A DNA stretch of 52,583 bases, from positions 1-52,583 of the forward strand of contig CALLAC010000025.1 of NCBI GenBank assembly GCA_938002655.1, read 5' to 3'. This document shows, in pieces, positions 3,513-19,951 of the stretch. This stretch comes from an uncultured Cytophagales bacterium (GTDB lineage: Bacteria > Bacteroidota > Bacteroidia > Cytophagales > Thermonemataceae). The translations under genes and the position numbers were made by a program. The notes under the pieces are model-generated. The model ran no database searches and had not been told where the DNA came from. It was given only the letters and a program-made list of their open reading frames with translations. How positions within the stretch are numbered: the first letter of the stretch is position 1; the number at the start of each line of letters is the position of its first letter.

Positions 3513-3830
3513 ATGGGCAAAAAAACCGTAGAAATCACTGATGCAAATTTTCAAGAAATCATCAATTCAGGAAAGACGGTACTTATTGACTTTTGGGCGG
3601 CTTGGTGCGGACCCTGCCTGATGATAGCTCCTACTATTGATGAAATTGCAAGTGAAGCAGGAGAAGATTTAATTGTAGGGAAATTAGATGTAGATGCTAA
3701 TCCGCAAGTTTCTATGCAACTTGGTATTCGAAGCATTCCTACGCTAATGGTTTTCAAGAACGGTCAGGTAAAAGCTACTCAAATTGGCGTTGTACCCAAA
3801 GCTACTATTCTGAAAATGCTCAACGCATAA
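3513..3830 (+). CDS. trxA: Thioredoxin
   Basis: A 105-residue classical thioredoxin, a cytoplasmic disulfide reductase working with thioredoxin reductase. The active site is W31-C-G-P-C35 in FWAAWCGPC, the cis-proline is P76 in SIPTL, and the length equals that of typical bacterial Trx. There is no signal peptide, so it is not one of the periplasmic thioredoxin-like proteins that are frequent in this phylum. A TAGGTTTG at 3472-3479 resembles a -7 box, but no TTG sits at ideal spacing. The gene is followed immediately by a strong hairpin shared with the convergent gene. Confidence 0.97.
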   Translation: MGKKTVEITDANFQEIINSGKTVLIDFWAAWCGPCLMIAPTIDEIASEAGEDLIVGKLDVDANPQVSMQLGIRSIPTLMVFKNGQVKATQIGVVPKATILKMLNA

Positions 3831-17488: not shown

Positions 17489-18655
17489 ATGGAAAATTTT
17501 ATTGTTTCGGCTCGCAAGTATCGTCCTGCAACATTTGCTAGTGTAGTGGGGCAAAGTCATATTACTACTACGCTCAAAAATGCTATTCTGAACAATCATT
17601 TAGCACAAGCGTTTTTATTCTGTGGACCCAGAGGGGTAGGCAAAACCACTTGTGCGAGAATTTTAGCCAAAACTATCAATTGTCACCATATTACCCCTGA
17701 AGGCGAAGCCTGTGGCGAGTGCGAATCTTGTGTTGCTTTTCAAAATAATGCTTCTTTTAATATTCACGAATTAGATGCCGCTTCCAACAACTCTGTGGAA
17801 GATATCAGAAACCTTGTGGAGCAAGTTCGCTATCCGCCCCAAAATGGGAAATACAAAATTTACATCATAGACGAGGTGCACATGCTTAGCAATGCGGCTT
17901 TCAATGCTTTCCTGAAAACCTTAGAAGAGCCGCCCCGCTATGCTATTTTTATTTTGGCTACTACTGAAAAACATAAAATTATCCCTACTATTCTTTCTCG
18001 CTGTCAGATTTACGACTTCAATCGTATTCAAATTTCTGACATTGCCAATCATCTGGCTTCTATTGCAGAAAAAGAAGGCATCAAAGCCGAGCCGCAAGCC
18101 CTGCACCTAATTGCCCAAAAAGCCGATGGAGGCTTACGCGATGCTCTTTCTATGTTTGATTTGATTGTAACTTTTTCTGCCGATAATACTATCACCTATC
18201 AAAAGACCATTGAGAACCTTCATATTCTTGATTACGACTATTATTTCCGCATTACAGATTGCCTTTGGCAAAACGACCTTTCGCAAACTTTGCTTATTTT
18301 TGATGAAATTCTAAAAAAAGGCTTCGACGGACATCTTTTCGTGATAGGACTGGCAGAACATTGGCGAAATCTGCTTGTAAGTAAAGATGCCCAAACTGTA
18401 CAACTTCTGCAAACTACCGATGAAATCAAAAAACGCTATGCCGAGCAAGCAAAAAATTTGCCCCTTTCTTGGCTTATTTCGGCTATGAATGTTCTGCAAC
18501 AAGTAGATATTCAATACAAAAATAGCAAAAACCCCAAACTCTTTGTAGAAATTGCTCTGATGAAAATTGCTCATCTGCAAAAAGCTATTGAGCTTTCTCA
18601 AATAGCTCAAAGTCAAAATATTGCAGATGATAAAAAAAAAGTACCTACCCCATAA
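17489..18655 (+). CDS. dnaX: DNA polymerase III clamp-loader subunit, gamma-length product
   Basis: A 388-residue product of the zero frame, ending at a TAA eight codons after the A9 run begins. It contains the full clamp-loader core: Walker A GPRGVGKT (46-53), zinc cysteines C65, C75, C78, C81, Walker B IIDEVHML (126-133), sensor ATTEKHK and SRC (170-172), then domains II and III. The end falls shortly after the region where domain III ends in E. coli DnaX (about 373), so this truncated form corresponds to gamma, which supports clamp loading but lacks the polymerase- and helicase-binding tail. It begins 87 bases after the CheY-like gene. Confidence 0.93.
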   Translation: MENFIVSARKYRPATFASVVGQSHITTTLKNAILNNHLAQAFLFCGPRGVGKTTCARILAKTINCHHITPEGEACGECESCVAFQNNASFNIHELDAASNNSVEDIRNLVEQVRYPPQNGKYKIYIIDEVHMLSNAAFNAFLKTLEEPPRYAIFILATTEKHKIIPTILSRCQIYDFNRIQISDIANHLASIAEKEGIKAEPQALHLIAQKADGGLRDALSMFDLIVTFSADNTITYQKTIENLHILDYDYYFRITDCLWQNDLSQTLLIFDEILKKGFDGHLFVIGLAEHWRNLLVSKDAQTVQLLQTTDEIKKRYAEQAKNLPLSWLISAMNVLQQVDIQYKNSKNPKLFVEIALMKIAHLQKAIELSQIAQSQNIADDKKKVPTP

Positions 18656-19179
18656 CGCCTTCTGCTCAAACTAAACCGCAAGAGTTCAAAAGTACGCTTC
18701 CGCTTCCTACTATTGAAACGCTTCAAAATCAGGTTAGTGATAAAATTACTGCTACTCAGCCAAAAGCTACAAATGCAGCAGCCCATAGCGAGGCTTTCCC
18801 GAAAAAGCCGATTAGTCTTTCTGAAATGCAAGAGGCATGGCAAAAACTTGTACAGAAAGCTAAACAAAGTGATGAATTTGACTCTACCGATAGAATAATT
18901 TTGGACAGACCCTTTACTTGGGAAAAGAATGTTCTGCATTTAGTTCTGGAAAATAGCCTACAAACAAATATTGTGAACAAAAAAAAAGAGTTTTGGATAA
19001 AATTGTTGCAAGAGTTTTTGCAAAACGCTACCCGCTTTGATATTCAGGCGAGTGTAGCATCCAAAGAGCAAGTAGAAAATAAAATCATTTACACCAATCA
19101 GGATAAATGGCTATTTTTGGCTCAAAAACACCCAACTTTGGAAGATTTTAGAAAACGTTTTGGCTTAATCTTGGAGTAA
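17489..19179 (+). CDS. dnaX: Tau subunit, read through a -1 frame switch at the A9 tract
   Basis: If the reading frame moves by -1 at 18632-18640, translation continues without a stop from AGT at 18640 to 19179, giving a product of about 563 residues. The extension has a Pro/Thr/Ala-rich linker (STYPITPSAQTKPQ, then KKPISLSEM) and a folded end with AWQKLVQKAK, VLENSLQTNIVNKKKEFW and LAQKHPTLEDFRKRF. A linker followed by a small alpha/beta domain is the layout of Bacteroidota tau tails. No start codon with separate coding logic is seen at the linker, so it is not an independent gene. Whether one continuous frame is really lost through a sequencing error in the homopolymer cannot be excluded from sequence alone. 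Confidence 0.75.
18632..18640 (+). promoter_or_regulatory. A9 slippage tract in dnaX
   Basis: Nine A residues encode KKK in the zero frame just before GTA CCT ACC CCA TAA. An A9 run at the same place in Thermus dnaX causes transcriptional slippage, while E. coli uses ribosomal slippage on A-AAA-AAG. Here no internal Shine-Dalgarno or strong downstream hairpin is evident, which favours the transcriptional mechanism. Confidence 0.65.
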
Positions 19180-19243
19180 AGATTTTTTAATTTGGTAGAT
19201 GTTTGAAAAAAAACTAACTTGGCAGTATCCAAACGTTTCTCCT

Positions 19244-19951
19244 ATGAATAAAATAACAACTCTCTTGTTACTAACTTTCTTACCTATGAGTTTGCAAATG
19301 TTTACATCTCCACCACTATTTACAAAAGTAAAAAAATATCTTGATGAACGTGCCAAAGAGTTTGAGCAAATTCCACAACAACGACGGAAAGAACTCAAAG
19401 AAATTGCTAATCACATTATCAAAAAGCAAAAGAAAAAAGAAACAACCGAAATTATCGTAATTTGTACACACAATTCACGTAGAAGCCACTTTGGGCAAGT
19501 ATGGCTACAAATTGGAGCATACTACTACGGACTGGAAAAAATCAGCACTTTTTCTGGCGGAACAGAAGCTACGGCTTGCAATCCTCGTACCGTAGCGGCA
19601 TTGCAAAGGGCAGGCTTGGAAATTAAAAATATTTCTTCGAGTGATGAGAAAAACCCAAAGTATGTGGTAAGTTATGCCCAAAACATTCCAGAAATCTATC
19701 TTTTTTCCAAGGAATATAACTCTACTGCCAATCCGCAAATGGGCTTTATAGCAATTTTGGTGTGTTCTTCTGCCAACGAAGTGTGCCCCATTGTAAAAGG
19801 TGCTGAACAAAGATTTTACATTCCTTACGAAGATCCTAAAATTTCCGACGATTCGCCACAAGAAACACAAACCTATGACGAGCGTTGTAAACAAATTTCT
19901 CGTGAAATGCTTTATGTAATGTATTGCGTAAAAAATGGCATAAAAAAGTAA
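19244..19951 (+). CDS. Low-molecular-weight phosphatase/arsenate reductase-fold protein
   Basis: A 235-residue protein with the P-loop C-T-H-N-S-R-R (CX5R) in VICTHNSRRSHFGQ, the active site of low-molecular-weight protein tyrosine phosphatases and related arsenate reductases, and an acidic loop YEDPKISDD in place of the usual general-acid DP motif. The N-terminus MNKITTLLLLTFLPMSLQ is a signal peptide or membrane anchor, so the enzyme may act outside the cytoplasm or at the membrane. That would be unusual for arsenate reduction, which needs cytosolic thiols. An upstream ATG at 19199 would add 15 residues before the hydrophobic segment. The stop is three bases from nth. Phosphatase of phosphotyrosine and arsenate reductase are both possible; I do not choose. 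Confidence 0.75.
   Translation: MNKITTLLLLTFLPMSLQMFTSPPLFTKVKKYLDERAKEFEQIPQQRRKELKEIANHIIKKQKKKETTEIIVICTHNSRRSHFGQVWLQIGAYYYGLEKISTFSGGTEATACNPRTVAALQRAGLEIKNISSSDEKNPKYVVSYAQNIPEIYLFSKEYNSTANPQMGFIAILVCSSANEVCPIVKGAEQRFYIPYEDPKISDDSPQETQTYDERCKQISREMLYVMYCVKNGIKK

Follow-up and report, generated by a model that had tools for sequence, protein, structure and literature searches.

Does the dnaX gene of an uncultured Cytophagales bacterium, in which the reading frame breaks off shortly after a run of nine A residues, encode one clamp-loader protein or two? The gene is located in the window, by which we mean the whole stretch of 52,583 nucleotides of contig CALLAC010000025.1 that was analysed; all features described here are on its forward strand. 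The zero-frame open reading frame (17489–18655) encodes 388 amino acids, comprises clamp-loader domains I to III and, in profile searches, matches NF011531, PF13177, PF22608 and PF12169, with the ATPase, lid and domain III all present; its unslipped product is gamma-like. The closest solved structures by sequence are gamma/tau chains in the PDB (best E-value 2.6e-66), which we take to be those of E. coli. The Pfam match to domain III stops at residue 368 and the A run (18632–18640), with a T on its 5' side and a G on its 3' side, starts at codon 382. An earlier, sequence-only reading had placed an A9 tract in dnaX after domain III, as is indeed found; the zero-frame stop that it put 18 bases past the run is 12 nucleotides away, the TAA at 18653–18655 closing the gamma-like product four codons on. 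The claim of a -1 frame that runs on to 19179 with a tau-like tail was also borne out: 178 codons follow the run up to the TAA at 19177–19179, and the tail matches positions 445–613 of the 614 in the full-length gamma/tau model NF011531 (E-value 9.5e-13). This tau linker and C-terminal tail (18640–19179) would be joined to dnaX in transcripts with ten (or seven, or 13) As, while the +1 frame stops after ten codons at the TAA of 18672–18674. The computed products are thus of 388 amino acids for A9, 563 amino acids (tau) for A10 and 394–395 amino acids for A8 or A11, the last two being closed by the +1-frame stop; the gamma-like protein and tau would have masses of about 43 and 63 kDa.

The split might be an artefact, and comparison with genomes of the same genus bears on this directly. 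One of them (locus L004 in genome G001) has the identical A9 run and the identical split. Over the 178 codons of the -1 frame, the tails of the window locus (L003) and L004 have diverged with a dS of 0.85 and a dN of 0.12, giving a dN/dS of 0.14. The out-of-frame tail is under purifying selection as protein, even though it is in frame in neither genome. A third member of the genus (L005 in G002) is split too, with A10 instead of A9; its tail has a dN/dS of 0.24 relative to the window, at saturated dS. A homopolymer error in sequencing or assembly, the true gene having A10 and being continuous, would fit the fact that ten As in place of nine render the window gene continuous, as they do in two members of its family (L010 and L029). 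Such a slip is improbable, since L004 repeats both the A9 and the split in an independent genome and the tail is under purifying selection. Moreover, L005 is split with A10, splits occur in 82 of the 219 loci with at least nine As in the wider sample described below, and the run itself would persist even if there were an error. Still less probable, to the point of being negligible, is a genuine split in which tau has been inactivated to a pseudogene, or a phase-variable switch in the DNA. Long homopolymers do mutate fast and some near relatives differ in run length; against this stand the dN/dS of 0.14 at a dS of 0.85 between two split genomes, a run length that is mostly ten elsewhere and the presence of splits in all four sampled sets. 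Loss of tau is also unlikely to be tolerated, as tau of E. coli contacts both the polymerase and the helicase according to PMC11470591.

The end of the tau tail is predicted to be a folded domain. An alignment of 46 tails (the window and 45 relatives) delimits a conserved part at 18805–19176, and the AlphaFold2 model of these last 124 residues has a mean pLDDT of 88.7, which supports the -1 frame as a real part of a protein. A Pfam search of the 46 tails did not reveal any family matched by more than one of them, a PDB sequence search with the tau tail returned nothing below an E-value of 0.33, and Foldseek with the model returned no match at an E-value of 0.001 or less. The best fold matches of the model are DnaA domain I (4tps_B, Z-score 9.0, r.m.s.d. 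2.6 over 78 residues) and DciA (8a3v_C, Z-score 7.3). This resemblance concerns the fold alone, at a level close to that of common arrangements, and was not used as evidence. The C-terminal domain of E. coli tau is absent among the fold matches listed, which excludes nothing.

For a wider comparison, 266 dnaX loci were gathered: genomes of the order contributed 59, a named set (whose titles give Cytophagales genera, Pedobacter and others) 80, the class 107 and the phylum's other classes 20. One locus of the class set, L190, belongs to the order of the window and is counted there. L053, where the contig ends within dnaX, was dropped and three duplicate contexts were merged, leaving 262 distinct loci; G049, with a weak dnaX match, was left out. 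The class set (106 distinct loci) is enriched for split genes, as it consists of the listed split genes except those of G081, G181, G211 and G241, roughly one gene per genus from the rest of those listed, and 20 more. The run scored is the longest A run within 250 nucleotides after about residue 350, and control windows (n = 3544) are of the same size and strand, taken elsewhere in the loci. As the loci are related, Fisher tests on these counts are descriptive only; numbers of changes on the FastTree tree, built on the N-terminal parts, are estimates.

The run is widely conserved. At least nine As are present in 219 of the 262 linkers, as compared with 22 of 3544 control windows and four of 1045 windows inside dnaX upstream of the linker. 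The length is exactly ten in 183 loci, nine in 20 and eleven in 16; an exact A10 occurs in only two of the 3544 control windows. By set, the run is found in 51 of 59 loci of the order (with L190), 66 of 77 of the named set, 91 of 106 of the class and 11 of 20 from other classes, the last share being an overstatement because these 20, from 15 families, were picked with extra weight on short open frames; counted by family, six of the 15 have it. Across 22 whole genomes there are 217 exact A10 runs versus 1878 exact A9 runs, where the dnaX linkers have 183 and 20, respectively, and in the 7-Mb genome G035 one of only three exact A10 runs (both strands) sits in dnaX. General A-richness is rejected as an explanation by the control windows and the genome-wide counts. 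The run starts in codon phase 0, 1 and 2 in 39, 96 and 84 loci, respectively, with A10 in 32, 79 and 72 of these; A10 dominates in every phase, so it is the nucleotide run that is kept and not a codon pattern. A need of the protein for poly-lysine is likewise rejected, as the run occurs in all three phases. Loci with a GC fraction of at least 0.5 still carry the run in 33 of 48 cases, even though in the N-terminal part of dnaX in those 33 every second lysine codon on average is AAG. The run is not indispensable, as 43 of the 262 linkers do not contain nine or more As; three of the 43 have such a run further downstream.

A single A9 in the window proves little, because the genome has 147 exact A9 runs on both strands; the evidence lies in the conservation. 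Exact runs in this genome (G000, both strands) number 3171 for A7, 977 for A8, 147 for A9 and 14 for A10, an ever steeper fall-off with length, as if ten-base runs were avoided. Some loci depart from the common arrangement. Displaced runs of A10 to A12 lie downstream of the usual position in L008 (offset 1723), L052 (1390) and L194 (1369). The 1.2-Mb genome G044 contains two dnaX genes (L054 and L061), one with A8 and the other with A11. In L107 and L185, dnaX is split near residues 382 and 372, respectively, and there is no A run at the stop (that of L107 has G5A3); these two splits stay unexplained.

Aligning related dnaX genes was the check suggested by the sequence-only reading for both the run and the frame break. 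The run is kept, but the frame break is not constant: among the 219 loci with the run, tau is in the zero frame in 137, which are continuous, in the -1 frame in 76 and in the +1 frame in six. Of 58 loci from the order, 28 are split, 22 are continuous and eight lack the run. Cultured relatives show both arrangements: A10 goes with a continuous gene in Thermonema rossianum, which belongs to the family of the window, in a Dyadobacter and in a Pedobacter, and with a split one in an Algoriphagus, whereas Siphonobacter sp. SORGH_AS_0500 has A9 and is split. The same reading had taken relatives with A10 and one frame as an argument against slippage. Such genes do exist (L010 and L029; 137 of the 219 loci are continuous), yet they do not refute it, since the other two frames mostly stop within a few codons and slippage would give gamma. 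The longer of the two non-tau frames has six codons or fewer in 181 of the 219 loci, compared to 661 of 4380 positions chosen at random in the tail.

On the tree of the N-terminal parts, the run-bearing loci require a minimum of 35 changes of tau frame, 35 of phase and 33 of run length, and presence of the run a minimum of 27. Near relatives mostly agree in tau frame, a point against slippage: where the N-terminal parts are at least 85% identical (235 pairs), only eight pairs differ. In Siphonobacter, the N-terminal parts of L119 (a metagenome-assembled genome; A10, continuous) and L132 (A9, split) are 98.9% identical; L029 (A10, continuous) and L032 (A11, split) have 91.4% identity. In the pairs L268/L273 (82.7%) and L295/L296 (91.2%), A10 is retained and the frame is shifted elsewhere. 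To judge by these comparisons, one-base changes have probably survived beside a near-constant run, as would be expected if the frames mix there anyway, and run length seems to be under stronger selection than frame.

We estimate, from the sequence comparisons, a chance of roughly three in four that transcriptional slippage is programmed at the A9 run and yields gamma and tau. The rA:dT hybrid, being weak, would be realigned by RNA polymerase on the run, giving rise to a mixture of messengers. Those with nine (or six, or 12) As would encode the gamma-like clamp-loader protein of 387–389 amino acids; those with ten (or seven, or 13) would join the -1 frame and encode tau, of 562–564 amino acids with the C-terminal domain; and those with eight or eleven would encode a second short gamma-like protein of 394–395 amino acids. 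In the window, the unslipped messenger would thus give gamma and the slipped one tau, the reverse of the continuous relatives. In most relatives A10 would serve the same purpose: slippage would give gamma where tau is in frame, and tau where it is out of frame. The mixture would arise in transcription and both proteins would be made; as the window has A9 rather than the usual A10, its level of slippage is uncertain.

Could the ribosome bring about the shift instead? Read in the zero frame, the run is AAA AAA AAA GTA and contains A_AAA_AAA, on which programmed -1 frameshifting as in E. coli might occur without any heterogeneity of the RNA. The sequence-only reading had seen no ribosomal signals here; this holds for an upstream SD-like element, of which there is none in gtcaaaatattgcagatgat, and for a stable downstream hairpin, also lacking (minimum free energy -2.7, z -0.49; for L004 the energy is 0.0), but not for the run itself with its slippery heptamer. 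An Rfam scan of 14 loci, L003, L004 and L005 among them, found no frameshift element. Of the 82 split genes, 76 need a -1 shift, as ribosomal frameshifting would have it, and six require +1, which it would not. Also in favour of a ribosomal shift, SD-like 4-mers are moderately enriched upstream of the run (52 of 219 loci versus 203 of 1971 controls; 27 of 82 in split genes and 25 of 137 in continuous ones). Downstream, the mean folding z of 60 nucleotides at the 219 sites is -0.38 versus -0.10 further downstream, too weak for a conserved hairpin to be accepted as an element. In the window genome, one tRNA-Lys (UUU) was found among 30 of the 32 tRNA loci, the remaining two having class II lengths and the genome being 97.5% complete; this is like E. 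coli, and the tRNA argument used for Thermus, which has two tRNA-Lys (PMC1088944, PMC5009743), is lacking here. The heptamer takes up only seven bases, whereas the run is held at ten in all three phases, and we regard ribosomal frameshifting on it as unlikely, though the most serious competitor to slippage in transcription. Sliding of ribosomes on poly-A was rejected as the least likely mechanism; in a cell-free system from E. coli it needed at least eleven As (PMC4363877).

Some short-run relatives carry what look like ribosomal cassettes, a point in favour of ribosomal shifting in this group. An in-frame A_AAA_AAN followed within eight codons by a -1 stop is present in 16 of the 43 loci that lack the long run, compared to 69 of 785 control windows. 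In L007 (positions 2600–2700; genome G005, of the family of the window), what looks like a complete E. coli-type frameshift cassette stands where the A run would be: AGAGGA, A_AAA_AAG, a -1 TAA one codon on and a hairpin (-24.7 kcal/mol, z -6.5). L130 (3620–3700) contains AAGGAGG, A_AAA_AAG, a -1 TGA and a weaker GTCCCC/GGGGAC stem (z -1.4). Eight Pontibacter loci (L078, L080, L081, L086, L088, L089, L092 and L094, at about 3600–3700) have A7 and not A10, forming A_AAA_AAA, and the -1 frame stops one codon on; in five of the eight, AAGGAG or AGGAGGG is located upstream. Their hairpin z ranges from 0 to -1.6 over 50 nucleotides; over 70 nucleotides, measured for five of the eight, it reaches -3.4 in L086 and -3.1 in L088. 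The other six of the 16 loci have unconvincing stimulators. Judged by their sequences, these cassettes may stand in for the slippage run by acting on the ribosome; only that of L007 is convincing by itself. L007 pairs a short run with stimulators, which is the contrast expected if the long runs act differently.

The programmed slippage proposed for the window has relatives among described systems. In Thermus thermophilus, RNA polymerase slips on an A9 run in dnaX (Larsen et al. 2000, as cited in PMC1088944 and PMC5009743). Similarity to Thermus had been proposed for the window from the beginning, and it extends to the nine As late in the gene and the close stops in other frames (four codons in the zero frame and ten in the +1 frame); slippage into a gamma/tau mixture is the likeliest mechanism here. 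Genes of the Thermus type give messengers with varying numbers of A and both proteins at about 1:1. The direction is reversed: the unslipped product in Thermus is tau, and gamma comes from slippage (PMC1088944, PMC5009743), while the single continuous tau frame is absent from the window and present in 137 of the 219 run-bearing loci. Reversed dnaX genes of this kind are mentioned, for few bacteria, in the review PMC5009743. As in E. coli, where frameshifting is ribosomal, one gene would yield two kinds of product, but the window does not have the zero-frame A_AAA_AAG, the SD-like element about 10 nucleotides upstream or the hairpin, and its tau needs the shift (PMC5009743, PMC3711429). Shigella mxiE also needs slippage for a longer protein from two open reading frames, on a U run in the messenger and in an unrelated gene (PMC1088944).

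The sequence-only reading knew of no description in Bacteroidota, where dnaX is usually annotated as one frame, but genes of this kind are already published. Antonov et al. (2013; PMC3711429) described 17 dnaX genes from 12 genera as a new structural type with two open reading frames and predicted slippage for them; nine of these, from species named in the supplement, have ten As, and those from Chlorobi have nine, eight or seven. The window gene has all the properties of this type: dnaX is split into two adjacent frames with a -1 shift at poly-A, the C-terminus of tau is in the second frame and tau needs recoding. The genes presented in that paper are frame-broken ones only, whereas here the run is also found in continuous genes and in most sampled loci, and the frame flips both ways. 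The survey of Baranov et al. (2005; PMC1088944), as described there, retained only cases where slippage gives the larger protein, so that continuous genes would have escaped it. In the open-licence literature, no account was found of A10 in continuous dnaX genes or of its breadth across Bacteroidota, nor of the frame flips or of relatives in which an E. coli-like cassette replaces the run. While the two-frame poly-A type is already published, the breadth, the continuous genes, the flips and the cassette swaps are apparently new, which is no proof of novelty.

Taking these comparisons together, we lean slightly towards a broader reading, to be judged as a whole. The A10 site would be old in Bacteroidota, present in most of the class of the window and in several others, with run length alone setting the gamma to tau ratio; as the polymerase would always scramble the frame, the frame of tau would be near neutral in the long term, hence dozens of flips; and some lineages (that of L007, possibly also L130 and Pontibacter) would have exchanged the run for an E. 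coli-like ribosomal cassette. The cellular role of gamma is controversial, and the routes to it differ among bacteria, including ribosomal shifting, slippage and proteolysis (PMC5009743). A run held at ten As in most sampled loci, whatever the phase or frame, would strongly indicate that the mixture of gamma and tau matters, and a direct comparison is possible among relatives that are nearly identical but have A9, A10 or A11. Our analysis suggests that in these bacteria an apparently short or frameshifted dnaX is in many cases intact, and that a second product is hidden in the continuous genes.

Adjoining dnaX in the window, an open reading frame of 250 amino acids (19199–19951) has no Pfam match at 1e-5; it contains the sequence CTHNSRRS, which we take to resemble a phosphatase-type C(X)5R motif.
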